Below, piece by piece: positions 21,338 through 38,109 of a DNA stretch of 64,000 nucleotides. The translations under genes and the position numbers were made by a program. The notes beneath the pieces were generated by a model. The model searched no databases. It was not told the DNA's origin and saw only the letters and a list, made by a program, of their open reading frames with translations. The stretch is from Actinocatenispora thailandica (GTDB taxonomy: Bacteria > Actinomycetota > Actinomycetes > Mycobacteriales > Micromonosporaceae). Numbering within the stretch: position 1 is the first letter of the stretch; every line of letters begins with the position of its first letter. The stretch is taken from positions 7,004,198-7,068,197 of the forward strand of contig NZ_AP023355.1 of assembly GCF_016865425.1 (NCBI RefSeq), in the 5' to 3' direction.

Positions 21338-21407
21338 CCACCGGCGCCCGTCCGGTGCCGCCGGGGACCGCTGTGCCGCCAGTTGCTGCCGGGTGCCTGG
21401 TCGCCGG

Positions 21408-21857: not shown

Positions 21858-21879
21858 CGGCCATCCCTTCCGTGCGTCG

Positions 21880-21940
21880 TTGACAGCTTTTCGATAACCG
21901 GTTAACGTTCTGCTCGGACATTCGTTAACCAGTAAACGAA
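21880..21940 (+). promoter_or_regulatory. Promoter and MarR-type operators between divergent genes
   Basis: TTGACA (21880-21885), 17 bp, TAACGT (21903-21908) forms a good promoter for the NmrA-like gene. It is overlapped by the near-palindrome CGATAACCGGTTAACG (21892-21907). A second dyad, TTCGTTAACCAGTAAACGAA (21921-21940), lies just downstream of the -10. Both share the GTTAACC core, so binding by the divergently encoded MarR protein would block transcription. Confidence 0.65.
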
Positions 21941-21952
21941 CTGGGAGCCGTC

Positions 21953-22813
21953 ATGCTACTGGTCACCGGCGCCACCGGGCACATCGGCCGGGAACTCGCC
22001 GCCGAACTCGACGCCCGGGGCGAGCCGTTCCGGGTCCTGGTCCGCGACGCCGGCCGCGCCGCGACCCTTCCGGCGCGGGCCGAACGGTTCGTCGCCGACC
22101 TGGATCGACCCGAGACCCTGGCGCCCGCGTTCGCCGGCGTGCGCGGCCTGTTCCTGCTCACCCCGGGCATCGGGCTCGACCAAACCGCGCACGCCCTGGC
22201 CGCGGCGCGGGACGCCGGCGTGCGCCACCTCGTGCACCTGTCGTCGTTCAACGTCCTGGGCGACCCGATGCCGGCGATGGGGCGCTGGCATCACGAACGT
22301 GAGGAGCTGGTTCGCGCCGCCGGCATCCCCGCCACCACGCTGCGCCCGGGCGGCTTCATGACCAACGCCCTGGACTGGCTGGACACCATCCGGTCGGACG
22401 GCGTCGTGCTCGACCCGGTCGGGCCGGGACGTTTCGCGCCGATCGACCCCGCCGACATCGCGGCCGTCGCGGCACTGGCCCTGGTCGGGCGCGGCCATGC
22501 CGGCGAGCGGTACGTCCTCACCGGTGAGCAGACCTTCACCGTCACCGAGCAGGTCCGGGTACTGGCCGCCGCGATCGGCCGGGAGCTCGCGGTGCGGCCG
22601 GTGACGACCCCGGACGAGATCGTCCGGTCCCGCTTCCCGCACGGGGCGCCGGCCGCCCTGGCCGAGGCCGTCGTCGAGGGATTCGCGCTGATGCGGGCCG
22701 ACACCGTCGGCTTCCGGACCGACACCGTACGGCGGCTGCTCGGGCGCGCGCCGCGGACGTTCGCCGACTGGTGCGCCCGCAACGCGGACAGGTTCCGGCA
22801 AGCCGTCGCGTGA
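21953..22813 (+). CDS. NmrA-like NAD(P)-binding oxidoreductase
   Basis: A 286-residue atypical short-chain dehydrogenase. The N-terminal nucleotide-binding loop is LLVTGATGHIGRELAAEL, and HLVHLSSFNVLGDP and TTLRPGGFMTNALDWL follow in NmrA/QOR2 order. Members often reduce quinones or act as redox sensors. ATG 21953 has GGGAG upstream. Its promoter overlaps the dyads expected to bind the adjacent MarR regulator, suggesting induction by an electrophile or quinone. Confidence 0.83.
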   Translation: MLLVTGATGHIGRELAAELDARGEPFRVLVRDAGRAATLPARAERFVADLDRPETLAPAFAGVRGLFLLTPGIGLDQTAHALAAARDAGVRHLVHLSSFNVLGDPMPAMGRWHHEREELVRAAGIPATTLRPGGFMTNALDWLDTIRSDGVVLDPVGPGRFAPIDPADIAAVAALALVGRGHAGERYVLTGEQTFTVTEQVRVLAAAIGRELAVRPVTTPDEIVRSRFPHGAPAALAEAVVEGFALMRADTVGFRTDTVRRLLGRAPRTFADWCARNADRFRQAVA

Positions 22814-22881
22814 CCGGCGGCGGTGCTCAGCGGCCGGGCTCTGGTACGTCGAAGGATGTGGCGGGCCGGCGCGGGCGCCGG

Positions 22882-23577
22882 TCAGCCGGCGGTGGCCCGG
22901 GGTTCGGAGAGCGTCTGGTGCAGCCAGTCCTCGACACCGGCCACGTGTACGGTCGCCCACGCGCGGGCCACGTCGGGGTTGCGGCCGACCATGGCGGCGT
23001 GGATCGCCGCGTGCTGCTCCCGGGTGCGCTGCACGGCGCCTTCCTGGGTGAGGCCGCGCCACACCCTGGCCCGTACGGTCGGGGCGGACAGGCTCTCCAG
23101 CAGGCTGGCCAGCGACGGGTTGCCGGCGCCGACCGCGATCTCGCGGTGGAACCGCAGGTCGTTCGCGACGAGTTCGTCGACGCTGGGGTCGTCCGGCAGC
23201 TCGGCGAGGATGGCGCCGAGCGCGTCGAGCTGCGCGTCGGTCATCCGCCGGGCGGCGAGCTCGGTGGCGGCCGGTTCGAGGATGTGCCGGATCTCCAGGA
23301 ACTGGCGGATGCTGTCGTCGCGGTGGAAGTCGACGACGAAGCTCATCGTCTCCAGCAACAACTGCGGTTCCAGGCTGGTGACGTAGGTACCGTCACCCTG
23401 CCGGACGTCGAGCACGTGGATCAGGGACAGCGCACGGACCGCCTCACGCAGCGAGTTGCGGGACAGCCCGAGCCGGTCGGCGAGGTCGGCCTCCTTGGGC
23501 AGCCGGTCACCGGGGCGCAGCTCACCGGACGTGATCATGTTCTTGATCCGGTTGATCGCCTCGTCGGTCAGCGCCAT
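22882..23577 (-). CDS. GntR/FadR-subfamily transcriptional regulator
   Basis: A 231-residue regulator. The N-terminal winged helix (INRIKNMITSGELRPGDRLPKEADLADRLGLSRNSLREAVRALSLIHVLDVRQGDGTYV region) is followed by an all-helical FCD ligand-binding domain with the metal-site pattern EIRHILEP, NDLRFHREI and REQHAAIHAAM. These regulators usually control catabolism of organic acids or fatty acids. ATG 23577 is chosen over longer in-frame starts because GGAGGG lies just upstream and the wing begins at the normal distance. The target genes are not obvious in the neighbourhood. Confidence 0.88.
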   Translation of the reverse strand: MALTDEAINRIKNMITSGELRPGDRLPKEADLADRLGLSRNSLREAVRALSLIHVLDVRQGDGTYVTSLEPQLLLETMSFVVDFHRDDSIRQFLEIRHILEPAATELAARRMTDAQLDALGAILAELPDDPSVDELVANDLRFHREIAVGAGNPSLASLLESLSAPTVRARVWRGLTQEGAVQRTREQHAAIHAAMVGRNPDVARAWATVHVAGVEDWLHQTLSEPRATAG

Positions 23578-23719
23578 CCAGCCCTCCAGCTGCCGGGCGG
23601 TGCCCCGCGGCAGCCGGGCCCCTGTCTGCACGACCGCGCGCGGTGCGGTTGGTCGGCGCACCCGGTGGGCGCCGCGGCGCCTGGTCGCGCCGCGGCGGGT
23701 CGAGACGGGGACGGCTCGT

Positions 23720-23998
23720 CTAGTCGAACAGGTCTTCGAGGAAGCTGCGGCGCTTCCGGCGCTGCCCATGGTCCGGGTGGCGTCGCTCATCGTACCGGCG
23801 GGTGTCGTGCCGGCCGCGTTCGTCGTGCGGCCGCTGGTGGTCGCCCGGGCCGTACCACCCCTGCTCGGCGTTGATCAGGTGCTCCAGCTCGCCGCGGTCG
23901 AGGAACAGCCCGCGGCACTCGACGCACTGGTCGACGGTGACGCCGTTGCGCTCGTACTGACGCATCTGTCCATGGCACTTCGGGCAGGTCAGCTCCAT
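23720..23998 (-). CDS. TFIIB-type zinc-ribbon protein
   Basis: A 92-residue protein. The N-terminal ribbon has CPKCxGQM at residues 5-8 and CVECRGLFLDRGELEHL near residue 25, giving four Cys zinc ligands and the GLFLDRGEL signature of the zf-TFIIB family. The C-terminal half is His/Arg-rich and disordered, ending RRSFLEDLFD. The role is unknown; the family occurs widely as small stand-alone proteins. Minus-strand TACCGT (24005-24010) lies 6 nt before the ATG, a leaderless-type promoter. Confidence 0.83.
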   Translation of the reverse strand: MELTCPKCHGQMRQYERNGVTVDQCVECRGLFLDRGELEHLINAEQGWYGPGDHQRPHDERGRHDTRRYDERRHPDHGQRRKRRSFLEDLFD

Positions 23999-24068
23999 CG
24001 AGCAACGGTAGCCGAGCGATCGGGCGATCAGCCAAGGCTCATAGTGCTCCGTTAAGGATGCGTCCGGA

Positions 24069-24731
24069 TCAACCGAGCAGGCCGTGCACCTCGGCGTCGG
24101 AGATCTGCCGGAAGTCCTGGTAGAAGCGGCCGACCGCGTCGAAGTTGCCCGGCCGGTACGGGCAGACCAGCTCGTCCGCGACCGACGCCAGGGCCTGCGC
24201 CGCGTCCGGCGCGGCGACCGGCACGCCGAGCACGGTACGGGCGGCGCCGCGGCGCCGGGCCACCTCGACCGCGGCGCGGGCGGTCGCGCCGGTGGCGAGG
24301 CCGTCGTCGATCAGCACCACGGTGCGGCCGGACAGCGCCGCGGCCGGATGGTCGGCGTGGTAGCGGGCGTCCTGCCGGGCCAGCTCGGCGCGTTCGGCGG
24401 CGACCACGGTGTCGATCTCGCCGTCGGACAGCCGGTCGGCGTACTCGTTGAGGACGATGACCCCGTCCGGGCCGATCGCACCGAAGGCGACCTCCGGCGC
24501 CCACGGCATCCCGAGCTTGCGGACCACCAGCACGTCGAGCGGGGTGCCGAGGCGGCCGGCGACCTCGGCGGCGACCGGCATGCCGCCGCGGGCCAGGCCG
24601 ACCACCGTGACGTCGACGCGGCCCGCATAGCCGCCGAGCCGCGCCGCCAGCGCGGCACCCGCCTCCCGCCGATCCCGGTATGTCCGGTCGACGACCGGGT
24701 CGGCGAACCGGTGTCGGGGTCGCGACCGCAT
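24069..24731 (-). CDS. Phosphoribosyltransferase-family protein
   Basis: A 220-residue type I phosphoribosyltransferase fold. The PRPP loop is VVLIDDGLATGATA at about residue 137-150, and the early segment VVGLARGGMPVAAEVAGRL forms the pyrophosphate loop. The sequence between (LVVRKLGMPWAPEVAFGAIGP) matches the family of predicted phosphoribosyltransferases sometimes fused to dienelactone hydrolases. The substrate base is unknown. The gene starts 9 bp after the stop of the membrane protein upstream on the minus strand, so the two are likely co-transcribed. Confidence 0.83.
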   Translation of the reverse strand: MRSRPRHRFADPVVDRTYRDRREAGAALAARLGGYAGRVDVTVVGLARGGMPVAAEVAGRLGTPLDVLVVRKLGMPWAPEVAFGAIGPDGVIVLNEYADRLSDGEIDTVVAAERAELARQDARYHADHPAAALSGRTVVLIDDGLATGATARAAVEVARRRGAARTVLGVPVAAPDAAQALASVADELVCPYRPGNFDAVGRFYQDFRQISDAEVHGLLG

Positions 24732-24740
24732 GCTTCCTGT

Positions 24741-26114
24741 CTACGCCCGATCCACCGCCGTCGCGACTCGAACGCCGGGACGCTGTGCCGCCTCGGCCGT
24801 TTCGTGCGGTATGCGCAGTGCCACCGCCCAGACCGCGTACGCCGCGGGGTAGAGCAGGTAGCCGAACCGGGTGGCCGGCGCGAGGCAGATCGCGAGCAGC
24901 ATCGCCGCCGCCACCCGCCACGCCACCACGGTGACCTGTGCCGGCGGCCGGACCAGCAGGTGGATCACGAACGCGAGACCGGCCGCGACGAGCAGGCTCG
25001 CCGCGACGACCGTGCCGCCGGGTACGAGCACCGCGATCAGGTGGCCGGGCAGGTTGCTCGCCGCCGGGCTCTCGGCCAGGCCACGGCCCAGCGGGTAGCG
25101 GACCAGGTTCTCCAGCACCCCGTTCGGGTCCCGCAGCGTGATCGGGCCGAGGGTGACGACCGGGACGGCCAGCGCCGGCGTCAGGTACCAGCCGAGCGCC
25201 CGCCCGCCGGCCCGGAATCCGACGAACACCGCCAGCACCACCAGTACCGGCAGCGCGAACAGCTTCATCGCGGCGGCGTCGCCGATCACCAGCCCGGACA
25301 GCAACCACCAGACGGCGCCGCCGCGGTCGTCCAGGTGCCCCCTTACCGCGAAGGCGAGGCCGAGCAGGCACAGCGCGAGGACCGGCAGGTCGTCCCCGCC
25401 GGTGGCCAGGGTCAGCGCGCAGACCGGGAACACCGTCACCACCTGCGCCGCCCGGACCAGCACCGACGCCGGGGCGAGCCGGCGCAGCAGGAACAGGGCG
25501 GCCACGATCGCGGCGGCGGTCACCACCGCGAACCCGACCCGGGCGTCGGTCCACCACTGGTCCCCCGCGTACCGCCGGGGCAGGCCGAACACCGCGATGC
25601 CCGGGTTGTACGGCACGTAGGCGAGGTAGCCGAGCGACGGCAGCGCGCCGACGATGCCGTCGTGCGACAGGTAGGGGCTGCCGGTGTCGACGAGCCGGGC
25701 GCCGGCCATCTCGACGACCGTCACCTCGTCCTGGGCACGCCCGCTGGCGCCGGCGGCCCGCTGCGCCGCCTCGACCAGCAGCGGCAGCAGTGTGCTGGCC
25801 GCCCAGCCGGCGAACACCAGCACCATGCGGACCGCGGGGCGCGCCAGGCCACGCCCGACGAACCGCTGGACGACGGCGAGCACGGTCAGCGCCAGGTAGC
25901 CGAACACCGCGATGCGGCCCCACTGCGCGTGCGCCGGCATGCCGGTGTTGAACGCGGTGATGCCGGCATAGGCCGCGGATGCCGCGTACAGCACGATGTC
26001 GACAACGGTGCCCCGGCCGGCCCGGTGCGTCGCGCGGGCGATTCCGGTCAGCGTCACGCCGGTCAGTCTGGCATCGCTCCCCGCGGCCGCGCACTCCCGG
26101 TAGGCATCCGCCAC
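24741..26114 (-). CDS. Polytopic membrane protein, GT87/DUF2029-like
   Basis: A 457-residue protein with about 10-12 hydrophobic segments, starting VDIVLYAASAAYAGITAFNTG and ending in a cytoplasmic-type tail. Features of polyprenol-phosphate-dependent mannosyltransferases include an extracytoplasmic loop VVEMAGARLVDTGSPYLSHDGIVG and YVPYNPGIAVFG, LATGGDDLPVLALCL and SGLVIGDAAAMKLFALPVL. Such GT-C enzymes add mannose or arabinose to envelope glycolipids. The catalytic Asp is not securely assigned. It lies between the GGDEF-EAL gene and the phosphoribosyltransferase on the same strand with gaps of about 10 bp, so the three may form one transcript. Confidence 0.68.
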   Translation of the reverse strand: MADAYRECAAAGSDARLTGVTLTGIARATHRAGRGTVVDIVLYAASAAYAGITAFNTGMPAHAQWGRIAVFGYLALTVLAVVQRFVGRGLARPAVRMVLVFAGWAASTLLPLLVEAAQRAAGASGRAQDEVTVVEMAGARLVDTGSPYLSHDGIVGALPSLGYLAYVPYNPGIAVFGLPRRYAGDQWWTDARVGFAVVTAAAIVAALFLLRRLAPASVLVRAAQVVTVFPVCALTLATGGDDLPVLALCLLGLAFAVRGHLDDRGGAVWWLLSGLVIGDAAAMKLFALPVLVVLAVFVGFRAGGRALGWYLTPALAVPVVTLGPITLRDPNGVLENLVRYPLGRGLAESPAASNLPGHLIAVLVPGGTVVAASLLVAAGLAFVIHLLVRPPAQVTVVAWRVAAAMLLAICLAPATRFGYLLYPAAYAVWAVALRIPHETAEAAQRPGVRVATAVDRA

Positions 26115-26123
26115 GGCGGCGGG

Positions 26124-28610
26124 CTACAACCGGCGCCGGGCGCTGCGGGTCAGCCGGCCCGGCGGGATGCGGATGACCTGCGCGTCCGCCGACATCGGCG
26201 GCGCCAGCGGAGCCTCGGCGGCGAGCAGCTCGGCGATCCTGGTGTCGGTCACCGGCCGGGAGAACAGGTAGCCGGAGCCGCACGGGCAGCCCAGCTCGAA
26301 CAGCATGGCGCGCTGCCGCTGGCTCTCCACCCCCTCCGCCACCACCGACAGGTCGAGGCTGCGGCCCAGGTCGATCGCGGCGCGCACCACGGCGGCCGGT
26401 TCCGGCGAGGTGACCAGGCCGGCCACGAAGCTGCGGTCGATCTTCAGCTCGTCCACCGGAACCCGGGCCAGCATGCCGAGCGAGGAGCTGCCGGTACCGA
26501 AGTCGTCCAGGGCGATGCGCACGCCCAGCTCGCGCAGCCCGCGCAGGGTGTCGTCGACGACATCCAGCCGGCTCAGGTTGCGCGTCTCGGTCAGTTCCAG
26601 GGTGAGCTGCTCGGGCGGGACACCGCTGGCCACCACCCGCCGCTGCACCACCCGCAGGAAGTCCGGGTCGAGCAGGCTGCGCGGCGACAGGTTCACCGCG
26701 ACGCCGATCGGGTGGCCGGCGCCGGCCCACTCGGACGCCGCCGCCAGCGCGGTGTCGAGCACCAGTTCGGTGAACTCCGGCAGCAGGTCGGACCGCTCGA
26801 TCGCGGTGAGGAACTGCCGCGGCGCCATCTCCCCCCGGTAGGGGTGCTCCCACCGGGCCAGCGCCTCCGCGGCGCTGATCCGCCCGGAGTTGAGCTCGAC
26901 GATCGGCAGGTAACGCAGGGCGAACTGGTTGCCGTGCAGTGCGGCGCGCAGCTCGCCGCCGAGGGCGAGCCGGCCGATGTCGGCGGTGTCGCGCTGCCGG
27001 GCGTACTGCGCGAGCCGGCTGCCGTCCCGCTTCGCCTGGTACATCGCCACGTCGGTGCGGCGCAGCAGCTCGCCGACGCCGCCCTGCACCGGCGCGAGCG
27101 CGACACCGGCGCTGCCGCCGACGGTGATGCGGATGCCGTCGACCTCGATCGGCGGGTCCAGGGTGGCGAGCATCTGCCGGGCCCGGTGCACCGCGAGCGC
27201 CGGGGCGGGCAGCGCGACGAACAGCACCGCGAACTCGTCGCCGCCGAGCCGGACCACGATGTCGTCGTCGCCGGCCGCGGTGGCCAGCCGCCGGCCGATG
27301 GTGGTCAGCACTTCGTCCCCGGCGGAGTGCCCGAGGGTGTCGTTGACCTCCTTGAAGTGGTCCAGGTCGATCAGCACCATCGCCTGGGTGCCGCGGGTCG
27401 GCCGCTCGGCCAGCACCTGCTCGCCCACGTCCAGCAGGTACCGGCGGTTGGCCAGGCCGGTGAGCGGATCGTGCGCGGCGTCGTAGGCGTGCCGGGCGGC
27501 ACGCCGCTGCGCCTCGGCGTACGCGTACGCGTTGCGCAGCGCGGTGCCCAGCGCGGCGGCGAAGGTTTGCAGCGCGTACCGCTCGCGATCGCTGAGCCGC
27601 ACCGTGCCGCGGAACCGGAGTCGCAGCTCACCGGCATCGGTGTCGGTGTCGCGCTGCCCGCCGAGCGGCGTCTCGATCGTCTCCGCCTCGTCGGCGGCCG
27701 GGGCGTCGGCGGCGGCACCGGCCCAGGACACGCCCTGGGCATCGCCGCGGACCAGGCCATCCGGCTCGCTGCCCAGCCGTACCAGCACCTCGACCTCGTC
27801 GGCACCGAACAGCTCGGCGGCGCCGGTCACCGCGGTACCGAGCACCTGCGCCAGGTCGACCTCGCTGAACCGGTCGGTCACCGCGGCGAGCCGCTGCCAG
27901 GCCTCCCGCTCGGTGTGGGTGCGCAGCCGGTACGCGTAGGTCAGCCGGAGGAAGACGATCATCGGGGGGATCGCGAACAGCAGCCGCGGATCGAACCGCA
28001 GCACGGCCAGGATGAGGAACGCGACGGCGATGTTGCCGCTGATGGCGATCAGCTCGACCCGGTGCAGCGGCATCAGCCGCAGCCTGGTCCCGTTGGCGAG
28101 GCTGATCGCGATGCTCACCGACAGCGCTGCGATCAGCGCGTACACCGCGGTCGCGGCGATCAGCGCGGCCACCCCACGGAGGGTGAACGGGTCCACCGGG
28201 GTGCCGGCGATCAGCTGGCTCAGGGTGGCCGCCGCGGTCACCGCGACCACCTGTTTCGCGACGTTGAGGGTGAGCTTGTCGGCCGGCCGGCGACCGATCA
28301 GCTCGGCGGCCAGGCGGCCGAGCGCGGCGGCCCAGATCATCGTGCTCGGCGGCAGCACGACCAGGCCGATGATGACGGCCGCCTCACCCCAGGCGAACTG
28401 CACGCCCTGGCTGCGCAGCCGCAGCTGCACCGGGGCCAGCCCGGCCACGGTGTACAGCGCGAGCATGGCGACCGCGAGCCACGGTGCGCCGGTCGGTCCG
28501 GGCAGTTTGGCGGTGGCGATCAGCAGCACACCGAAGGCCAGCGCCGCGTGCCCGATGATGTAGCGGCGCAGCGTGGTGTTGCGGGCCGTGGAAGCGTCGG
28601 CAGTACTCAC
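26124..28610 (-). CDS. Membrane-bound GGDEF-EAL cyclic-di-GMP protein
   Basis: An 828-residue protein from GTG 28610. About six to eight N-terminal TM helices (residues about 15-230) are followed by a GAF-like linker (WQRLAAVTDRFSEVDLAQVLGTAVTGAAELFGADEVEVLV), then a diguanylate cyclase domain with intact RLGGDEF and DLDHFKEVNDTLGH. An EAL phosphodiesterase domain ends the protein, with EALARWEHP, NLSPRSL, LTLELTETRN, DDFGTGSSSLG, ELKIDRSFV and VVAEGVES, so both activities look complete. Products would set local c-di-GMP levels. A TAGGAT hexamer (minus strand, about 28645) could drive it separately from the mini-ORF array upstream. A longer in-frame start at 28730 would overlap the first mini-ORF and is not favoured. 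Confidence 0.88.
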   Translation of the reverse strand: MSTADASTARNTTLRRYIIGHAALAFGVLLIATAKLPGPTGAPWLAVAMLALYTVAGLAPVQLRLRSQGVQFAWGEAAVIIGLVVLPPSTMIWAAALGRLAAELIGRRPADKLTLNVAKQVVAVTAAATLSQLIAGTPVDPFTLRGVAALIAATAVYALIAALSVSIAISLANGTRLRLMPLHRVELIAISGNIAVAFLILAVLRFDPRLLFAIPPMIVFLRLTYAYRLRTHTEREAWQRLAAVTDRFSEVDLAQVLGTAVTGAAELFGADEVEVLVRLGSEPDGLVRGDAQGVSWAGAAADAPAADEAETIETPLGGQRDTDTDAGELRLRFRGTVRLSDRERYALQTFAAALGTALRNAYAYAEAQRRAARHAYDAAHDPLTGLANRRYLLDVGEQVLAERPTRGTQAMVLIDLDHFKEVNDTLGHSAGDEVLTTIGRRLATAAGDDDIVVRLGGDEFAVLFVALPAPALAVHRARQMLATLDPPIEVDGIRITVGGSAGVALAPVQGGVGELLRRTDVAMYQAKRDGSRLAQYARQRDTADIGRLALGGELRAALHGNQFALRYLPIVELNSGRISAAEALARWEHPYRGEMAPRQFLTAIERSDLLPEFTELVLDTALAAASEWAGAGHPIGVAVNLSPRSLLDPDFLRVVQRRVVASGVPPEQLTLELTETRNLSRLDVVDDTLRGLRELGVRIALDDFGTGSSSLGMLARVPVDELKIDRSFVAGLVTSPEPAAVVRAAIDLGRSLDLSVVAEGVESQRQRAMLFELGCPCGSGYLFSRPVTDTRIAELLAAEAPLAPPMSADAQVIRIPPGRLTRSARRRL

Positions 28611-28710
28611 GGTGGCAGGTCCCCGGGGCGAATCGGGTGACGGATGCGGCGATCCTACGCGGCTGGGCGGATCGACGTAAGTGACTGTTCGACAACGCCA
28701 CACGTCGTCG

Positions 28711-28734
28711 TCAGCTCCAGTTGTGTTCACGCAC
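28711..28734 (-). CDS. MREHNWS mini-ORF 1
   Basis: Seven-codon ORF, GTG start, CGT for Arg and GAA for Glu, stop TGA. Shine-Dalgarno AAAGGAG at 28740-28746 on the complement, 5 nt before the start. It is the copy nearest the GGDEF-EAL gene. Confidence 0.75.
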   Translation of the reverse strand: MREHNWS

Positions 28735-28772
28735 GGCGGCTCCTTTCGTCCGAGGTGGCTGTTCGAGGGCGG

Positions 28773-28796
28773 TCAGCTCCAGTTGTGCTCGCGCAT
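28773..28796 (-). CDS. MREHNWS mini-ORF 2
   Basis: ATG start, CGC for Arg, GAG for Glu, stop TGA. Shine-Dalgarno AAAGGGGA at 28802-28809 (complement), 5 nt before the start. Confidence 0.75.
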   Translation of the reverse strand: MREHNWS

Positions 28797-28838
28797 CGCG
28801 GTCCCCTTTCGGCTGGTCAGGACGGTGTTGTCGGGTGC

Positions 28839-28862
28839 TCAGCTCCAGTTGTGCTCGCGCAT
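28839..28862 (-). CDS. MREHNWS mini-ORF 3
   Basis: ATG start, CGC for Arg, GAG for Glu, stop TGA. Shine-Dalgarno AAGGGAG at 28869-28875 (complement), 6 nt before the start. Confidence 0.75.
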   Translation of the reverse strand: MREHNWS

Positions 28863-28905
28863 GGCGGTCTCCCTTCCGTGGATCGAGATGGGTCGTCGGC
28901 CGCGG

Positions 28906-28929
28906 TCAGCTCCAGTTGTGTTCGCGCAT
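28906..28929 (-). CDS. MREHNWS mini-ORF 4
   Basis: ATG start, CGC for Arg, GAA for Glu, stop TGA. Shine-Dalgarno AGGGAGG at 28934-28940 (complement), 4 nt before the start. Confidence 0.75.
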   Translation of the reverse strand: MREHNWS

Positions 28930-28968
28930 GACGCCTCCCTCGGGTCGTGGTGGTCGGTGCCGATGGGC

Positions 28969-28992
28969 TCAGCTCCAGTTGTGTTCGCGCAC
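28969..28992 (-). CDS. MREHNWS mini-ORF 5
   Basis: GTG start, CGC for Arg, GAA for Glu, stop TGA. Shine-Dalgarno GGAAGGA at 28999-29005 (complement), 6 nt before the start. Confidence 0.75.
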   Translation of the reverse strand: MREHNWS

Positions 28993-29033
28993 GGGCTGTC
29001 CTTCCGGGTCGTCGGGGCGGGGTCGCGGGCGGG

Positions 29034-29057
29034 TCAGCTCCAGTTGTGTTCGCGCAT
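29034..29057 (-). CDS. MREHNWS mini-ORF 6
   Basis: ATG start, CGC for Arg, GAA for Glu, stop TGA. Shine-Dalgarno AGAGGGG at 29064-29070 (complement), 6 nt before the start. Confidence 0.75.
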   Translation of the reverse strand: MREHNWS

Positions 29058-29099
29058 GGCGCACCCCTCTCTGTTCGCCGGGGCGGTGCTCACGGACCG

Positions 29100-29123
29100 T
29101 CAGCTCCAGTTGTGTTCGCGCAC
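29100..29123 (-). CDS. MREHNWS mini-ORF 7
   Basis: GTG start, CGC for Arg, GAA for Glu, stop TGA. Shine-Dalgarno GAAGGGGG at 29130-29137 (complement), 6 nt before the start. It is the promoter-proximal copy if the array is one transcript. A longer open frame (89 codons from 29369) happens to run into it in phase, but its composition looks non-coding. Confidence 0.72.
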   Translation of the reverse strand: MREHNWS

Positions 29124-29535
29124 GGTGCACCCCCTTCGGTACGGCTCGGGGTGGGGTGCCGGCAGGCCGGCGGTGGCGCGGGAGGCAAGAAGGCCGAGGT
29201 ACGAGGCACGAAGGCCGAGGTACGCGGAGCGCGGGGTGCATGCCCGTTTCGCGGTGTCCTCACGACCGCCCCCCAACGTCGCGCGCGTCGTGGCCGGTGC
29301 CTGCGGCCCGTTGCGTCGCGGGGCGGGCTGGGGCGCCGCCATCTCCGGCAGGAGGAACATCGTCAGCATAGATAGCCGTCTATGGCAGGGCCATGTGCGA
29401 AAAGGATGACAGACGGTGTCACGGCGGCAGGTAACGGATCATTGCCGCCCGGCGCTGGCGCCGGCCGCTCCGGTGGGCCGCGCCGATTCGTGCGCCGTCC
29501 CGGTCCGCGCCGGCCGGGCTGCGTAGGCTCGTCGT
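29124..29535. other. 412-bp region between mini-ORF array and moaC, with a dyad
   Basis: No convincing gene. It should hold the promoter of the minus-strand array and that of moaC. CATAGA-N6-TCTATG (29367-29384) is a clear dyad in an AT-richer patch; on the minus strand it overlaps the hexamers TATCTA and TATGCT, plausible -10 elements. A short direct repeat, AAGGCCGAGGTACG, occurs twice near 29188-29225. TAGGCT at 29524-29529, 6 nt before the moaC GTG, is a leaderless-type -10. Confidence 0.5.
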
Positions 29536-30228
29536 GTGACCGAGTCCAGTGGCGGCCTGACCCATGTCGACGAGGCCGGCGCGGCGCGGATGGTGGACGT
29601 CTCCGGCAAGGACGTCACCACCCGCAGTGCCGTCGCCGCCGGCCTGGTGCGCACCACGGCCGAGGTGCTCGACCTGATCCGGAGCAACGGCCTGGCCAAG
29701 GGCGACGCGTTGGGGGTGGCGCGGATCGCCGGCATCATGGCCGCGAAGCGCACTCCGGACCTGGTGCCGCTCTGCCATCCGATCGCGATCCACGGGGTCG
29801 TCGTCGACCTCGAACCCAGAGAGTCCACAGTGGACATACGGGCGACGGTGCGGACGGCGGACCGCACCGGCGTCGAGATGGAGGCACTGACCTCGGTCCT
29901 CGCCGCCGGGCTCGCGCTGATCGACATGATCAAGGCGGTCGACCCGGCGGCCGGCATCGACGCGGTTCGGGTGCTGCGCAAGGACGGCGGCAAGACCGGT
30001 ACCTGGATCCGGCCCACCGATCCGGCGCCGCCCGGCGCCGCCCCGGGAGGGCGCAGCGCCGCGGGAGAGCACAGCGCCGCAGCAGAGCTCAGCGCTGCGG
30101 GAGAGCAGAGCGCCGCAGCAGAGCTCAGCGCTGCGGGAGAGCAGAGCGCCGCAGCAGAGCGCAGCGCCGCGGGAGAGCGCAGCGCCGCGGGAATGGCGGT
30201 ACCGGGAGAGCACGGAGGGCAGGCATGA
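29536..30228 (+). CDS. moaC: Cyclic pyranopterin monophosphate synthase MoaC with repeat tail
   Basis: A 230-residue protein. MoaC converts the MoaA product to cyclic pyranopterin monophosphate, the first stable molybdopterin precursor. The catalytic core (residues about 1-160) shows LTHVDEAGAARMVDVS, VPLCHPIAIHGV, GVEMEALTSVLAAGLALIDMIKAVD and the Lys pair in RKDGGKTG. MoaC is normally about 160 residues; here a tail of about 65 residues follows, made of SAAGEQ/SAAAEL repeats encoded by an 18-bp tandem repeat. GTG 29536 is preceded by TAGGCT at leaderless distance. Its stop overlaps the start of the next gene (ATGA), so mogA-moeA is translationally coupled. Confidence 0.93.
   Translation: MTESSGGLTHVDEAGAARMVDVSGKDVTTRSAVAAGLVRTTAEVLDLIRSNGLAKGDALGVARIAGIMAAKRTPDLVPLCHPIAIHGVVVDLEPRESTVDIRATVRTADRTGVEMEALTSVLAAGLALIDMIKAVDPAAGIDAVRVLRKDGGKTGTWIRPTDPAPPGAAPGGRSAAGEHSAAAELSAAGEQSAAAELSAAGEQSAAAERSAAGERSAAGMAVPGEHGGQA
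30050..30192. repeat. 18-bp tandem repeats in the moaC 3' end
   Basis: About eight units of the form GCAGCGCCGCGGGAGAGC / GCAGAGCTCAGCGCTGCG in alternating variants. They are in frame with moaC and give the Ala/Glu/Ser-rich tail. Confidence 0.85.
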
Positions 30229-32012
30229 CCGAGTTCGTGGCCCGGGTGATCGTGGCCTCCAACCGCGCCTCGTCCGGTGGGTACGCCGACACGACCGGGC
30301 CGGTGCTCGTCGACGGGCTGCGGCAGCTGGGTGCCACGGTGACCGAACCCGTCGTCGTACCGGACGGTGACCCGGTCGAGCGGGCGCTGCGGGCCGCGGT
30401 GGACGCCAAGGTCGACGTCGTCCTCACCACCGGCGGTACCGGCGTCTCCGCCACCGACCGCACCCCGGAGGCGACCGCGCGGGTGGTCGACTACCAGATC
30501 CCCGGCATCGCCGAGTCGGTCCGGGCGTACGGGGTGGGCAAGGTGCCGACCGCGGCGCTGTCCCGCGGCATCGCCGGCGTCGCCGGCCGCACCCTGGTGG
30601 TCAACCTGCCCGGCTCGCGTGGTGCGGTCGCCGACGGCCTTGCGGTCCTCGGCCCGATCCTGGCGCACGCGGTCGACCAGCTCCGCGGCGGCGACCATCC
30701 TCGATCCACCGACCAGGCATCGGCCGGTGCGGCCGATCCGGCGACCGGCCTGGCCGCTGCCGCCCCGGGGCCGGCCGCGGTCGACGGTTCCGGTAGCGGG
30801 GTGCCGACCGGTGGCGGCGCCATCGGGTGGGTCGCGGCCCGGTCCGCCGCGCACGCCGCCGGGGCGACCGCGCCGCCGGAGCCGGTCCGGTTGGCGCTGG
30901 CCGACGTGACCGGCGCGACGCTCGCCGAGCCGGTCCGGGCCCGCACCCCGCTGCCCGCGTTCACCACCGCCAGCGTGGACGGCTACGCGGTCCGCGGCAC
31001 CGGGCCGTGGCGGGTCTCCGGCCGGGTGCTGGCCGGTCAGGTGGCGGTTCCGCTCGCGGCGGGTACCGCGGTGGAGATCGCCACCGGTGCGATGGTGCCG
31101 CCCGGCGCCGACCAGATCATCCGGGTCGAGGACGCCACCCGCGGCGCCGACGGCCTGGTCGACGGCGCGCCCCGCAAGCCGACGCCGGAGTGGCGGGTGC
31201 CGGGCGAGGAGGCCGTCAAGGGGGAGGAACTGCTCCCGACCGGTACCGCGGTCACGCCCGGTGTCGTGGGCGTCGCCGCCCAGTGCGGGTACGACGATCT
31301 GCTGGTGCGGCGTCCGCCGCGCGCGGCGGTGCTGGTGTTCGGCGACGAGCTGCTCACCGAAGGCCCGCCGGGACGCGGCCTGGTGCGCGACTCGCTCGGT
31401 CCGCAGCTGCCCGGCTGGCTGGCCCGGATCGGCGCGCTGCCCACGGTTTCGGCTCCGTCCGAGCCGGTCGGTGACACGCTCGACGCGCACGTCGAGGCGA
31501 TCGCGACCGCGGCCGGCGCGGCCGAGTTGGTGTGTACCACCGGCGGCACCATGCGTGGGCCGGTCGACCACCTGCATCCGGCGCTCGCGCGGCTGGGCGC
31601 CGAGTACGTGGTGGACACCGTGGCGGTGCGGCCCGGATTCCCGATGGTGCTGGCGAAGCTGCCCGGCGGGCGGTTCGTGGCCGGCCTGCCCGGCAACCCG
31701 CAGTCGGCGGTGATCGGCCTGTTGACGCTGGTGTGGCCGCTGGTCGCGGGGTTGACGGGGCGAGCGGTGCCGTCCCTTCGCCGGGTCCGGCTCGGCGCCG
31801 AGGTCGCCGGCCGCGGCGACGACACCCACCTCGCGCTGGCCCGGATCGAACCGGACGGGCTGGCGTACCCGTTGCCGCACAACGGATCGGCCATGCTGCG
31901 CGGGCTCGCCTGGGCGGACGGCTTCGTGCTGGTACCGCCCGGTGGCACCGGCCGGGTCGGTGAGCCGGCCGAGTTCCTGCCGTTCCCGCTCAACGCGGGT
32001 GAACGGCCATGA
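30225..32012 (+). CDS. Fused molybdopterin adenylyltransferase / molybdotransferase (MogA-MoeA)
   Basis: A single 595-residue ORF carrying two enzymes of molybdenum-cofactor synthesis. Residues about 1-160 are a MoaB/MogA domain (VIVASNRASSGGYADTTGP, VLTTGGTGVSATDRTPEAT, NLPGSRGA), which adenylylates molybdopterin. After a linker of about 40 residues rich in Ala/Gly/Pro, residues about 200-595 are MoeA: FTTASVDGYAVRG, EIATGAMVPPGADQIIRVED, GDELLTEG, CTTGGTMRGPVDHLH and VAGLPGNPQSAV. MoeA inserts molybdate into the adenylylated pterin. ATG 30225 overlaps the moaC stop. Fusion of these consecutive steps suggests substrate channelling, as in plant Cnx1 and animal gephyrin, but with MogA first. 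Confidence 0.92.
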   Translation: MTEFVARVIVASNRASSGGYADTTGPVLVDGLRQLGATVTEPVVVPDGDPVERALRAAVDAKVDVVLTTGGTGVSATDRTPEATARVVDYQIPGIAESVRAYGVGKVPTAALSRGIAGVAGRTLVVNLPGSRGAVADGLAVLGPILAHAVDQLRGGDHPRSTDQASAGAADPATGLAAAAPGPAAVDGSGSGVPTGGGAIGWVAARSAAHAAGATAPPEPVRLALADVTGATLAEPVRARTPLPAFTTASVDGYAVRGTGPWRVSGRVLAGQVAVPLAAGTAVEIATGAMVPPGADQIIRVEDATRGADGLVDGAPRKPTPEWRVPGEEAVKGEELLPTGTAVTPGVVGVAAQCGYDDLLVRRPPRAAVLVFGDELLTEGPPGRGLVRDSLGPQLPGWLARIGALPTVSAPSEPVGDTLDAHVEAIATAAGAAELVCTTGGTMRGPVDHLHPALARLGAEYVVDTVAVRPGFPMVLAKLPGGRFVAGLPGNPQSAVIGLLTLVWPLVAGLTGRAVPSLRRVRLGAEVAGRGDDTHLALARIEPDGLAYPLPHNGSAMLRGLAWADGFVLVPPGGTGRVGEPAEFLPFPLNAGERP

Positions 32013-32067
32013 TGGCGGTACGGCGTGGCGTTTCGCGCGTGCCGGTCCGGATTCCGGAGGTGTCGCG

Positions 32068-32493
32068 GTGACCGAGCTGGTCCGGGTCGAGGTGACCGAG
32101 AACCCGTTGGTACCGGCGGAGTTCGAGGCCGCGGTGGCCCGCCGCGCGTCGGGCGCGGTGGTCTCGTTCGCCGGGGTGGTGCGCGACCACGATCACGGCC
32201 GCCCCGTGCGGGAGCTGGCGTACGAGGGGCATCCGAGTGCGGCCGACGTCCTCGGCAAGGTGGTTGCGGACGTCGTGGCGCACTGCCCGGAGCTGCAGGC
32301 GGTCGCGGTCGGGCACCGGGTCGGTTCGCTCGCGGTCGGCGACGCGGCGCTGGTGGTGGCGGTCGCGTGCGCGCACCGGGGCGCCGCGTTCGACGCGTGC
32401 CGGCTGCTGGTGGACGAGGTGAAGGCGCAGCTGCCGGTGTGGAAGCACCAGCTGTTCGCGGACGGTACCGACGAGTGGGTCAACTGCCCCTGA
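32068..32493 (+). CDS. moaE: Molybdopterin synthase catalytic subunit MoaE
   Basis: A 141-residue MoaE. The large subunit of molybdopterin synthase takes sulfur from the MoaD C-terminus and puts it on cyclic pyranopterin. Conserved parts include GAVVSFAGVVRDHDHGRPV, LAYEGHPSAA, VGHRVGSLAVGDAALVVAVACAHR and the catalytic-lysine region DEVKAQLPVWKHQ. GTG 32068 has CCGGAGG upstream. It follows mogA-moeA by 55 bp. Its partner moaD is 5.6 kb downstream, behind moaA. Confidence 0.93.
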   Translation: MTELVRVEVTENPLVPAEFEAAVARRASGAVVSFAGVVRDHDHGRPVRELAYEGHPSAADVLGKVVADVVAHCPELQAVAVGHRVGSLAVGDAALVVAVACAHRGAAFDACRLLVDEVKAQLPVWKHQLFADGTDEWVNCP

Positions 32494-32902
32494 CCGGCCC
32501 GCGACCCACGTCCGTCCGGAGTGGACGGTGACTCGGTGGTGGGTTACCGTGGCGCCCGACAGGTTTCCGCCACTTCGGGCGGTAACGATGCGACAACGCT
32601 CTAGCGCAGCGAATCGCGTCGTTGGGTCAGAAACCCGACACTTGACCTCCGCTTCCCTCCAACGGGGCCATTGTGCTACCCATCGCGCCGTCCGGCGGCC
32701 TATGGTGTCGCTGGTTGGCACGTCGTACTATGCGGCGTGCCGCCCGGCTCAGCTCGGGTGTCGACCAGACAGTGCACATGGTTCGGTGTTGGAACGGCGA
32801 GTGCCCGATGGGCGGCGTTTCGGTTTGAGGTGACTCCGGGGGCGGAGTCCGCAACCAGCGCCATCGCCGACCGATGGTGGAATGCATGTGGGGGGAGTGC
32901 AG
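32494..32902. other. 409-bp intergenic region, no gene seen
   Basis: No open frame here has convincing coding character. A TTGACC hexamer occurs at 32642-32647 without a clear -10 partner. The region presumably contains the promoter of the small ORF at 32903. Confidence 0.4.
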
Positions 32903-33211
32903 ATGAGCATGGTTGCGACGCAGGCTGCCGCGGAGACGGCGGTCCAGGACGATCCACCGCTGGTCGCCCGCGGGCTGATGGATGCCTACCGGCGCTGGTG
33001 GCAGTCGGTCCAGCAGGTGCACAGCATGCTGGAGTTGGGCAGCGGGTCGACCGAGGAGGTCGGCCAGATCCTCGACGAGGAACGCACCGCGCGACTCGAC
33101 TACGCAGCGATGCTGCGCAGTTCGAACCGGCCGGTGGCCGACTACCTGGCCGAGGACAAGGCATTCCCGCCGCTGTGGCCGACCCCGGAGCCACCGGTCG
33201 CCCAGCGCTGA
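32903..33211 (+). CDS. Small hypothetical protein
   Basis: A 102-residue protein from ATG 32903, with GGGGGGAG 5 nt upstream. The sequence is soluble and helical: VARGLMDAYRRWWQSVQQVHSMLELGSGSTEEVGQILDEERTARLDYAAML. The C-terminal quarter is Pro-rich (FPPLWPTPEPP). No known family recognised. It lies between moaE and a convergent NUDIX gene. Strong ribosome-binding site and codon pattern make it a probable real gene. Confidence 0.65.
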   Translation: MSMVATQAAAETAVQDDPPLVARGLMDAYRRWWQSVQQVHSMLELGSGSTEEVGQILDEERTARLDYAAMLRSSNRPVADYLAEDKAFPPLWPTPEPPVAQR

Positions 33212-33221
33212 GCCCGACGGG

Positions 33222-33671
33222 TCACCCGGCTTCCGCGGCCAGCCTCCGATAGTCCGCGGAGCCGAGGAACGACGGCAACACCTGACCGGCGATGTCGGTC
33301 AGGTCCAGCTGCGGGACCTTGTCGGCGGCGACGAACTCGAGCGCCTGCCCCTCGCCCAGCCGGACGTCGTCTCGGGTGACCGGCAGCGCGGTGGCGAACA
33401 CGTGCCAGGCGACCACCCGGCCGGGGCTGACCCGGTCGGGCATGGTGCCGTCGGCCACCGCGTGCACCGGCCCGGACGCGGTCAGGCCGGTCTCCTCGGT
33501 CAGTTCCCGTCGGGCCGCCTGCTCGGCGGTCTCGCCGGGCTCGACGTGCCCGCCGGGCGGTGACCACCGGCTCGGGTCGACCCGGGCGTCGGCGTCGCGC
33601 AACTGCATCAACAGCGCACCGTCGCGACCGACGACAACCATCAATGCGATGCGGTGTCCGATGGGCGCCAT
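33222..33671 (-). CDS. NUDIX hydrolase
   Basis: A 149-residue NUDIX protein. The Nudix box is complete: [18 protein letters not shown] followed by TEETGL (GX5EX7REUXEEXGU), around residue 42-64. The box binds the metal used to hydrolyse nucleoside-diphosphate-linked substrates, often to clean oxidised nucleotides. A minus-strand TACGCT (33680-33685) lies 8 nt before the ATG, giving a leaderless-type start. The substrate is not predictable. Confidence 0.88.
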
Positions 33672-33896
33672 GTCAGCGAAGCGTAGCCGATCGGTTGCCG
33701 GAAACCGAGCGTCGCCGCGCGGCGCCCCGGGTACGCGGCATCGCCGGCGGCGGGCGCTTTCCCGCTGGCCGCCCCGGTACGTGCCGGGTCGCCGTGCCGC
33801 CCGATCGGTGGGCGCCGCGGCGGCCGCCCGGCGCGCCGTGCCGCCGCGGCGGCCGCTTGGTGCGCCGTGCCGGCTGGTCCGGGCGGGGGTGGGCGG

Positions 33897-34415
33897 TCAG
33901 GGCGTGATGCGTTCGACGGCCCGGCGGCGCAGCCGGCCCACCCGCTTGGCGGCGGTCTCGGTGGCGTGTGATGCCCGCCAGCCGAGCCCCGGCCGGCCCT
34001 GGGTGTCGACCGCGGTCAGCGCGAGGCCACCCAGGATCGCCACGTTCTTGAGGAAGTGGTTGCGATGGTTGGCCCGCTGCGCCGGGTCCTGGTAGCGCCA
34101 CCACGCGTGCCCGACGACGGTCGTCGGCACCAGCGAGGCGGCGAGCGCGAGCGCCGCGAGCCGGGGCAGCCGACCGCTGGCGAGCAGCGCCGCGCCGCCC
34201 ACCTGGACGGCCGCGTTCGCTCGTACCACCGCGACGGGCCCGGTGGGCAGCCACGGTGCGGCGCGTTCGGTGGCGGCGGTGATGCGCTCGCTCACCGGCT
34301 CCGCCTGTTTCGCCGCGTGTTCGGGATGCAGCAGGGTGTGCACACCGCCCGAGACGAAGACGGAGGCGAGCATGGCGTGGGCGAGACTCCGTACCGGCTT
34401 CATACCTGTTTTCAT
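33897..34415 (-). CDS. DoxX-like membrane protein
   Basis: A 172-residue protein with about four hydrophobic segments (LAHAMLASVFVSGGVHTLLHP, VQVGGAALLASGRLPRLAALALAASLVPTTVVGHAWW, NVAILGGLALTAV), the arrangement of the DoxX family, which has been linked to thiosulfate metabolism and oxidative stress responses. The C-terminal tail is basic. Two starts are possible, ATG 34415 (MKTGMKP) and ATG 34403; neither has a strong ribosome-binding site. Confidence 0.72.
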   Translation of the reverse strand: MKTGMKPVRSLAHAMLASVFVSGGVHTLLHPEHAAKQAEPVSERITAATERAAPWLPTGPVAVVRANAAVQVGGAALLASGRLPRLAALALAASLVPTTVVGHAWWRYQDPAQRANHRNHFLKNVAILGGLALTAVDTQGRPGLGWRASHATETAAKRVGRLRRRAVERITP

Positions 34416-34496
34416 ACCGCCGATCGGCTCGGATGAATCAGGCAATGTACGATTCGCCGGCCGGTGACCCGTGTCGCAACTCCCGGGGAGTGACTC

Positions 34497-35290
34497 TTGT
34501 CGTACCGTGCGGCTACGGTAAGTGGCATCATGTCGCGCCTTTCGTCCGGGGTTGTCCAGCACTACCGCCCGATCGCGATCTGCTCCGCGGTGGGCGCCTT
34601 CGCTCTGGGCTCGGCGGCGAGCCAGACGACCGGCTGGCTGTTCTGGACCCTGCTCGGCGGCGCCGCGGCGTTCACCGCGATCTCGGTCGGCCTGCCGATG
34701 TACGCGGAGCGGGCCGCGTCGGTGCGCGCCTCGGACGCGCGGCAGATCGCGGAGCGCGCCACCCAGCAGATGCGCATCGTGGTCGGCCGGGTCCTCACCC
34801 CCTCGCGTACCTGCTGGGCGAGATCAGCGACGCCCGCCCGCGCGGCGGTGACCTGGACCAGTTGCAGGGCCAGGCCCGCCAGATCGTGCTGGCGGCGGCG
34901 TGCGAGCTGGTCGCCCCGGCCGGCGCGCGGGCCTGCTACTTCCGGGCCGTCGGCGGCCGGAGCCGCCGGCTGGAGCTGGTCGGTTACTACGGCCGGGCGG
35001 AGCCGGGCACCGTCGAGTTCGTCGCCGGTACTCCGCTGGGCGACGTCGCGTTCCGGCTGCTCGACACCGACACCGACGGCTTCTACCCGGACCTGACCGT
35101 GCAGGCACCGCCCGGTTGGATCACCGGCGACCACAAGCACCGGTCGCTGATCGTGGTGCCGGTGGTGACCGCGCGGCGCCAGTTCGGCCTGCTCACCGTG
35201 GACACCGAGGAGTGCGGTGCGCTGCACGACCAGGACCGCGAGCTGGTACGCCTGCTCGGGGAGCTGCTCGCGGCCGGGCTGAACCGGTAG
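34497..35290 (+). CDS. GAF-domain membrane protein, frameshifted as given
   Basis: Two open frames joined at 34798-34802 make one sensible protein of about 264 residues. Residues about 20-75 carry two hydrophobic segments (IAICSAVGAFALGSA, GWLFWTLLGGAAAFTAISV), then a helix, and a GAF-type domain (LDQLQGQARQIVLAAACELV...FRAVGGRSRRLELVGYYG...SLIVVPVVTARRQFGLLTVDTEE). The frame breaks at a run of five C; six C give VLTPLAYLLGEI across the junction. The TTG at 34497 is chosen because GGGGAG lies 6-7 nt upstream; ATG 34530 is the alternative. A sensor role is likely but no output domain is attached. Confidence 0.75.
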
Positions 35291-35466
35291 TCACCGGCTC
35301 ACGCGAACGGGCGGAATTCAAGGCCACGGACTGACGGATCTAGGACAGTCGCCTCGACATGTGCGCATTAGTGTGCGTAGCAACCTTGGGGCGAACGCCG
35401 TTGCGTTGGCGACGTCGGCAAGGGCATGGCAGGCTGGACCCGATCGGTTCTGGATGGGGGTCTCCG

Positions 35467-35718
35467 GTGTCGAGCTTGATCGAAGCATGCGGTGTGCCGC
35501 TCGTCGGTCCCGTCGTGGCCGAGGCGCGAGACGCCGATCAGAGCCCGCGCGACGGCGCGGCCCGGCTGCTCAAGGACCCCAAGGGATATTTCGCCGACGC
35601 CCGTAACTGGGCGGGCAAGAAGGCCAAGGCCGACGTGCAACGCGAGTTGTCCGAGAAGAAGGCCCAGCGCACCCGGTTGCCGCTGCTGAGCCGCCTGCGC
35701 CTCGCCGCCGTGCACTGA
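35467..35718 (+). CDS. Small hypothetical basic protein
   Basis: An 83-residue protein from GTG 35467, with GGGGG about 8 nt upstream. The C-terminal half is charged and helical (DPKGYFADARNWAGKKAKADVQRELSEKKAQRTRL). No family recognised. The gene is followed immediately by an 18-bp minisatellite. Confidence 0.55.
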   Translation: MSSLIEACGVPLVGPVVAEARDADQSPRDGAARLLKDPKGYFADARNWAGKKAKADVQRELSEKKAQRTRLPLLSRLRLAAVH

Positions 35719-35726
35719 ACCGCGAC

Positions 35727-35846
35727 GCCATCCCGCTTGCTCGTGCCATCCCGCTTGCTCGCGCCATCCCGCTTGCTCGCGCCATCCCGCTTGCTCGCGC
35801 CATCCCGCCTGCGACGCCAGCCCGACTGCTCGCGCCATCCCGCCGG
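35727..35846. repeat. 18-bp tandem repeat GCCATCCCGCTTGCTCGC
   Basis: Six to seven units, the first four almost identical and the later ones degenerate. They lie in the 360-bp gap between the small basic protein and the hydrolase gene. Antisense frames across it read as GMARAS or QAGWRE repeats, with no ribosome-binding site or conserved partner, so it is taken as non-coding. Confidence 0.85.
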
Positions 35847-36078
35847 CCAGGTCAACCACGTCACCCGGACACGGCATCCCGCCGAGCCTGGCGGCGGCGA
35901 CGCGCGGTTCGGGGCCGGCGGTCCGTCGTCGCCGGTTGTGATCCGGCGCAACATGCCCACGGAGCACGTGCTCTCCGGTGGCACACTGTGCCCCATGAGC
36001 GAGCGAATCATGGGCATCGGGCGGGTTGATGCTTCATGACCGGGCAGGTCACGGGCGTTCGAACGGAGGGGAACGCTC

Positions 36079-38108: not shown

Positions 38109-38109
38109 G

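Follow-up and report, generated by a model that had tools for sequence, protein, structure and literature searches.

Tandem heptapeptide micro-genes of Actinocatenispora belong to a larger family paired with membrane GGDEF(-EAL) proteins and may encode their peptide ligands

Why would a bacterium encode one and the same heptapeptide seven times in a row, each time as a gene of its own? The question is raised by positions 28711–29123 (minus strand) of a 64,000-nucleotide stretch of Actinocatenispora thailandica DNA, which is called the window below. There, seven units of 24 nt all read M/V-R-E-H-N-W-S-TGA, with a purine-rich Shine-Dalgarno sequence directly 5' of the start in every one of them. 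The array and its flanks comprise the following features.

29536..30228, plus strand: moaC, flanking the array at its other end; divergent, with conserved synteny (start from our own gene calling)
29351..29400, minus strand: candidate promoter region upstream of the array, nearly identical in three of four genus genomes and partly kept in A. rupis, with TATGCT at 29365-29370 (flank alignment)
29100..29123, minus strand: micro-gene unit 1, GTG start, REHNWS, TGA; Shine-Dalgarno GAAGGGGG upstream
29034..29057, minus strand: micro-gene unit 2, ATG start, REHNWS, TGA; Shine-Dalgarno AGAGGGG
28969..28992, minus strand: micro-gene unit 3, GTG start, REHNWS, TGA; Shine-Dalgarno GGAAGGA
28906..28929, minus strand: micro-gene unit 4, ATG start, REHNWS, TGA; Shine-Dalgarno AGGGAGG
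28839..28862, minus strand: micro-gene unit 5, ATG start, REHNWS, TGA; Shine-Dalgarno AAGGGAG
28773..28796, minus strand: micro-gene unit 6, ATG start, REHNWS, TGA; Shine-Dalgarno AAAGGGGA
28711..28734, minus strand: micro-gene unit 7, GTG start, Arg as CGT, REHNWS, TGA; Shine-Dalgarno AAAGGAG
28652..28657, minus strand: TAGGAT hexamer between the array and the GGDEF-EAL gene, present in all four genus genomes; candidate -10 box of the GGDEF-EAL gene
26124..28610, minus strand: membrane GGDEF-EAL gene (828 aa), the proposed receptor; its N-terminal part (~27891-28610) and the membrane domain of array-flanking Pseudonocardia GGDEF proteins are homologous
24741..26114, minus strand: GT87-type membrane glycosyltransferase gene, a syntenic neighbour that also lies by the single-copy micro-gene of a Micromonospora-type locus (L234)

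An earlier, sequence-only reading had described seven minus-strand units, each with its own Shine-Dalgarno sequence, silent variation inside the units and periods that are not all multiples of three, and all of this was confirmed. Four units start with ATG and three with GTG; apart from these starts, three codon differences among the units are silent and none is replacing, and the start-to-start periods are 66, 65, 63, 67, 66 and 62 nt. Identity amounts to 94% for the units and 59% for the spacers (minus the 14 nt before each start), as compared with 53% for shuffled spacers. In the A. thailandica genome (7.43 Mb, one contig) the exact pattern occurs only at these seven units, with no eighth, and the dinucleotide-shuffled window yields 0 matches vs 7 in the real one, for which reason a chance origin of the array was rejected. 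The window also contains two other tandem repeats, at 56058-56288 (47-nt unit, 4.9 copies) and 20262-20415 (29-nt unit, 5.3 copies).

The exact pattern matches five of 354 Micromonosporaceae genomes, namely A. thailandica, three more of its genus and one of another genus (G168), where no stop codon follows and the match was dismissed as chance. Close relatives, whose lack of the array the sequence-only reading had taken as grounds for giving up its claim, all carry it: the array is present in all four Actinocatenispora genomes, with 12, 13 and 10 units in the three others. By pattern, 41 of the 42 units in the genus encode MREHNWS and one, the last unit of G005, encodes MREHNWT, while A. comari has an additional degenerate unit, MRERHWT, after its twelfth; the last unit is the least constrained. 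The CGT codon of unit 7 recurs in both of these last units. Synteny is conserved in all four genomes (moaC / array / membrane GGDEF-EAL gene / GT87 gene), and although the GGDEF-EAL protein of A. rupis is just 73% identical to that of the window, 13 of 13 peptides in that species are MREHNWS.

Beyond the genus, we scanned the genomes of 84,980 species for two neighbouring MRxHxW-like units. This gave 22 stretches, two from Actinocatenispora and seven from Pseudonocardia/Pseudonocardiales with real arrays; the remaining ones look like chance or like repeats without Shine-Dalgarno sequences. The seven loci encode MRNHNW (2 to 13 copies) or MRNHGWS, one genome having both MRNHNW and MRGHSWG, and in each of the seven a membrane GGDEF protein adjoins the array. 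Repeats of a seemingly unrelated kind, spaced by ~145 nt, occur in Phycisphaerae (L079 and L085), where L079 reads MRNHAWLH up to 48 times; the repeated micro-ORFs of L079 and L082 mostly have no Shine-Dalgarno sequence.

The GGDEF neighbour of these first Pseudonocardia arrays was then used to predict new ones. Out of 62 Pseudonocardia genomes searched with the array-flanking GGDEF protein 61 matched, and the prediction held in all 30 loci examined, some of which the genome scan had already found: each has at least two copies of a micro-ORF of 6-7 residues with a Shine-Dalgarno sequence (at least three copies in 25 of 30), and in each the micro-genes are divergent from the GGDEF gene. Further peptides found in this way are MRNKNW, MRNKSW/MSNKSW, MRNRSW, MRNRTWI, MSKDWN, MGKDWN, MSGHGWG and MRGKEWH, and one wide locus (L223) contains 18 MRNKSW, 3 MSNKSW and 1 MRNKSWH. 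After shuffling, none of the 30 loci was positive in any of three rounds, and when the window was cut into 15 tiles, the one with the array was the sole positive. Sixteen unrelated control loci, a set that leaves out the repeat-rich L079, L082 and L085, gave one positive without the Trp requirement (L083, MRKVY four times) and none with it. Interspersed TGCGAG-TCACC repeats in three Pseudonocardiaceae genomes (G358, G587 and G728; loci L087, L117, L120, L121 and L123) are unrelated to the arrays.

A survey of 246 genomes of the class with the GGDEF alignment extended the pairing to other families. A micro-ORF was present in 24 of the 30 loci examined, in all 24 oriented away from the GGDEF gene: in 18 of 18 loci of family f21, 16 of them with at least two copies (MRDNTWT, MRDTTWS, MRDNNWN and others), in five of ten loci of family f18, each with a single copy (MLRGVTWT/I, MSSGVQWV, MASVVQWG), and in the one locus of family f33. 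The scans found no micro-ORF in the other six loci, which include the second GGDEF locus of A. thailandica (L203, 0/1). One f21 genome (G967, locus L185) has, upstream of its GGDEF gene, an array of 15-residue ORFs with two fused cores each, MRDTNWV-LRDTNWSW, interrupted by a scaffold gap; the fused cores suggest either processing or that the core alone matters. The GGDEF-EAL alignment, run against 296 genomes, led to 27 loci at greater distance, of which four contain a micro-ORF that fits (MSKMWA, MSKDWK, MRSTSWN, MRDTYWG); the low-scoring matches among the 27 contain none. The pairing thus becomes weaker the farther one moves away from these proteins.

Closer to the window, the GGDEF-EAL homologue was sought in 81 Micromonosporaceae genomes, and 30 loci were examined, four from Actinocatenispora and hence 26 others. 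In 25 of these 26 a micro-ORF of the form M(3-4 residues)W lies within 1.5 kb upstream, the one of L055 farther off than the rest, and the 26th locus (L057) has MKKSNGWG. Within 400 nt, the strict pattern M[RS]xxxWx is present in 23 of the 26 loci and a loose one in 25, as against 1 strict and 9 loose matches in 383 kb of background, a rate that excludes peptides already in the reported set. These micro-genes lie upstream of the GGDEF-EAL gene, close to it and on the same strand, usually as one copy, L039 having two of MRDDSWH. The loci L039-L064 had originally been chosen as negative controls; since they hold single-copy micro-genes, they are not negatives. Gene order at the Micromonospora-type locus L234 matches that of the window (moaC side, micro-gene MRGNDWL, GGDEF-EAL, GT87, phosphoribosyltransferase), and the array thus looks like an amplified single gene.

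Altogether, the array belongs to a larger and apparently undescribed family of micro-genes of 6-8 residues, mostly M-R-x-x-x-W-x, that in related bacteria number from one to about twenty per locus and neighbour a gene for a membrane GGDEF or GGDEF-EAL protein. Comparison of genomes lends good support to a pairing of micro-gene and sensor family in several actinobacterial families; related genomes and conserved neighbours were what the sequence-only reading had proposed to search, and both arrays and a conserved membrane GGDEF(-EAL) partner were found, a partner that the reading itself had not named. Relative orientation varies, with partner and micro-genes on the same strand in Actinocatenispora and Micromonosporaceae and on opposite strands in Pseudonocardia, f21 and f18. 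As the pairing is conserved and the position in the partner's mRNA is not, a peptide that acts in trans is favoured.

That the peptide is what selection maintains is indicated by the codons. In 49 arrays with 302 units, 81 of 105 differences from each array's consensus are silent, among them Ser switches AGC <-> TCC, and 24 are replacing, compared with a replacing share of about 87% expected under random change, the count of replacing differences being lowered by unit detection, which allowed at most one replaced residue relative to the main peptide. The Arg/Ser exchange between MRNKSW and MSNKSW accounts for eleven of these 24. Arrays with the repeat kept and the frame broken, which had been named beforehand as evidence against a coding role, did not turn up as such, in that unit differences are mostly silent, but a few degenerate units do exist. 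We thus regard the earlier proposal of selection for the peptide as well supported by these comparisons, and the peptide is very probably a real product with an action in trans. Arg2 occurs in 59 of 79 listed peptide types; Trp is the residue fixed by the search. His is replaced in many relatives (e.g. MRNKSW, MRDNTWT), and in the neighbourhoods examined no modifying enzyme turns up repeatedly; with this, the earlier suggestion of a His-Asn-Trp cross-link core had to be dropped.

As for the partner, the N-terminal membrane domains of the GGDEF and GGDEF-EAL types are homologous according to hhalign (probability 96.5, E 9.5e-10, 194 columns), which compared alignment A1 with alignment A2, the latter starting with the GGDEF-EAL protein of the window. 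The MASE9 model (PF20972) had no match in the window protein at 0.001 and stayed below its curated cut-off (24.3 bits) in two of eight GGDEF proteins scanned, both from Pseudonocardia (19.9 and 20.7 bits). For one Pseudonocardia GGDEF protein, AlphaFold predicts a bundle of long helices followed by the GGDEF domain (mean pLDDT 73, pTM 0.52), a model in which no pocket or known receptor fold was seen; Foldseek returned GGDEF proteins alone among the 50 matches listed, and a PDB sequence search with A2 gave 0 matches.

The surroundings of the pair were surveyed in 20 wide loci (11 Pseudonocardia, 5 f21, 3 f18, 1 Micromonospora) and vary from family to family. An MFS gene, which runs towards the micro-genes where present, was found in ten of the 11 Pseudonocardia loci and in four of the five from f21, the fifth (L229) being without usable gene calls; there was none in the three f18 loci, in the Micromonospora locus or beside the Actinocatenispora array. 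No exporter is common to all families examined, and the micro-gene peptides show no signal peptide. The neighbours scanned with Pfam include no Rgg-type family; the neighbour of the array is GGDEF-EAL.

Peptide distance correlates with sensor distance (Mantel r 0.71, n=54 pairs), also after removal of the GGDEF distance (0.63, p 0.0002). The plain peptide-GGDEF correlation of 0.51 is what relatedness would give; with the sensor removed it becomes -0.32 (n=54). The 54 pairs leave out GGDEF matches scoring <280 or not covering model positions 30-400 (L074, L088/L151, L210, L213 and the Micromonosporaceae proteins), duplicates of one gene, loci without a scanned micro-ORF (including L185) and the chance peptides MLNSWR and MLKIWR. 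Within Pseudonocardia (n=33) the peptide-sensor correlation is 0.66, and 0.68 with GGDEF removed, with a plain GGDEF value of 0.16; the values within f21 (n=17) are 0.68, 0.63 and 0.43. With the opposite flank as control (n=37), the MFS gene behaves as GGDEF does: peptide-sensor given MFS is 0.64 and peptide-MFS given sensor is -0.33, and for 13 dereplicated primary Pseudonocardia pairs GGDEF-MFS is 0.68, sensor-MFS 0.11 and peptide-sensor 0.61. Genomes with two pairs keep them apart, the sensor of MRGHSWG being nearest those of MSGHGWG and MRGHDWG and not that of its neighbour. Part of the correlation could stem from neutral exchange of one DNA block, peptide and sensor being adjacent, or from gene conversion between tandem paralogues in their GGDEF half, which could also blur the GGDEF signal. 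A joint change of peptide and sensor is well supported, and the two look like a module that is exchanged as such. It is likely, in our judgement, that the sensor domain is the peptide's partner.

We thus lean towards reading the product of the array as a leaderless peptide that serves the sensor next door as its ligand and is probably a signal between cells, feeding into c-di-GMP; a multi-copy signal was also the best of the options offered by the sequence-only reading. The array would be transcribed as a single mRNA, each unit would be translated from its own Shine-Dalgarno sequence and copy number would set the peptide dose; the peptide would leave the cell, where the transmembrane domain of the GGDEF-EAL protein would sense it and alter c-di-GMP synthesis or breakdown, and the pair would work as a peptide pherotype system. 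Binding, export, sensing from the outside, the sign of the c-di-GMP effect and cell-cell signalling are the steps that we infer, and for an exported cell-cell signal as such we put the chances at slightly better than even. That a peptide-gated c-di-GMP system of this kind extends across several families of Actinomycetes, with transmembrane GGDEF(-EAL) receptors that each answer to their own leaderless signal of 6-8 residues, made from single or tandem micro-genes, and with peptide and sensor exchanged as a pherotype, is in our view an evenly balanced proposition.

Results on pairing and covariation would fit equally well if the peptide never left the cell and bound the membrane GGDEF protein from inside or served as its assembly partner, in which case c-di-GMP output would report transcription and translation of the array. 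The missing leader sequence, the lack of an exporter shared by all families and the close, in-line arrangement of peptide and enzyme genes in Micromonosporaceae speak for such an intracellular partner. However, peptide and sensor diversify between species as a module while the flanks follow one another, the usual pattern for cell-cell signals such as the agr and ComX systems, and we consider the intracellular alternative unlikely. In the agr and ComQXPA pherotype systems, too, signal and receptor input domain diversify together and the output part is conserved; they differ from the present loci in having processed precursors and histidine kinases, and are not known to have micro-gene arrays. 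Far less credible is a repeat DNA or structured RNA element with an incidental reading frame: tandem repetition and a copy number that differs between species would suit it, but the unit differences are biased towards silent ones, the spacers are poorly conserved, and the peptides of other lineages differ while start, Shine-Dalgarno sequence and stop are kept. A structured RNA was rejected, as there is no Rfam match in 20000-40000 of the window and the array RNA folds less well than 100 of 100 shuffles (z +3.84), weak folding that fits open start sites.

The same weak folding argues against a leader-peptide attenuator or translation buffer, in which translation of the micro-ORFs, with one Trp each, would control the downstream gene in cis. 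Such control, also considered in the sequence-only reading, would suit the window and the other Micromonosporaceae with their micro-genes upstream of GGDEF-EAL on the same strand, but all 30 Pseudonocardia loci and all 18 f21 loci have their micro-genes divergent from the GGDEF gene, and for the family as a whole a cis leader was rejected on this account. The direction of the MFS gene in the wide loci, the conserved TAGGAT between array and GGDEF-EAL gene, and the non-Trp residues, which stay constant inside an array but vary along with the sensor, point the same way, making an attenuator quite improbable. Barely more probable is a multi-copy RiPP precursor of the biarylitide type, giving cross-linked or otherwise modified, secreted natural products, with the GGDEF protein as a mere regulator. 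Biarylitide precursors have 5 residues, often start with MR or similar, are encoded by bytA genes of 18 bp missed by gene finders and, as described in PMC13417212, can number as many as six in a single Lysinibacillus strain; the fused cores of L185 recall multi-core precursors, and a ThiF/nitroreductase gene lies near f21 arrays. Against this, the neighbours examined show no recurrent P450, radical SAM or other modifying enzyme, the moaA of the window belongs to a molybdenum cofactor set, and peptide divergence follows the sensor domain. Furthermore, where bytA has aromatic residues 3 and 5 and a nearby P450 (PMC13417212), MREHNWS has Glu3 and Asn5. Membership in the biarylitides was rejected, there being no P450 among 10 window neighbours (Pfam) and no MRY-x-[YH] pattern in A. 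thailandica; by this pattern, one of the four genus genomes, A. rupis, has a separate MRYWY micro-gene (G004 C19:99264-99281, locus L235) besides its MREHNWS array. MRYWY is the biarylitide precursor form reported for A. rupis together with the P450 AciB in PMC13417212.

For the favoured ligand reading, leaderless communication peptides are by analogy the closest working model, albeit with another kind of receptor. As PMC10518010 describes, LCP/SIP peptides of Firmicutes act with RopB-type Rgg receptors, are about 8 residues long and come from a tiny ORF that lacks a secretion signal; direct translation of a short peptide is likewise seen here in 7-codon ORFs with start, Shine-Dalgarno sequence and stop. 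Further likenesses are that the LCP ORF is often divergent from the receptor gene and that peptide codes vary between lineages (PMC10518010). The LCP receptor, however, is a cytosolic transcription regulator and LCPs are hydrophobic (PMC10518010), whereas we propose a transmembrane GGDEF(-EAL) protein and find polar peptides with one Trp; also, the phylum differs, and the words 'tandem' and 'copies' are absent from the main text of that paper. The proposed partner is of the same general type as the MASE-type diguanylate cyclases covered in a review of c-di-GMP sensing (PMC8846402), which counts AI-2 and BDSF among the quorum-sensing molecules with receptors in c-di-GMP networks and whose main text uses 'peptide' a single time, in connection with another domain clan. 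In open PMC papers we found neither MREHNWS nor anything showing a micro-gene/diguanylate cyclase system, which may be in print elsewhere.

If the ligand reading is right, it would supply the missing input of a family of membrane diguanylate cyclases and make peptides a further class of c-di-GMP-gating signal. Filamentous actinobacteria, whose development depends on c-di-GMP, would gain a peptide signal. Tandem arrays of identical genes of 6-8 residues are a gene architecture of which many more may be hidden, since standard gene finders pass over such genes, and peptides of this length can be purchased and tried out directly.

Two minor observations concern the neighbourhood of the micro-genes. 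Near the array's MFS gene, f21 loci carry a ThiF/nitroreductase gene, seen in this family alone, and an unclassified gene (L228:2472-4604 and 4601-5341). In the intergenic regions that separate micro-genes from GGDEF genes (L130-L148 and f18 loci), a scan with the BldD box motif gave 12 BldD-like boxes vs 1.6 expected in 60 regions; since seven of the 12 share a single homologous position, 81 nt ahead of the model start, the boxes are not counted as evidence. BldD is a c-di-GMP effector, and a BldD feedback on the micro-gene/GGDEF loci is conceivable.
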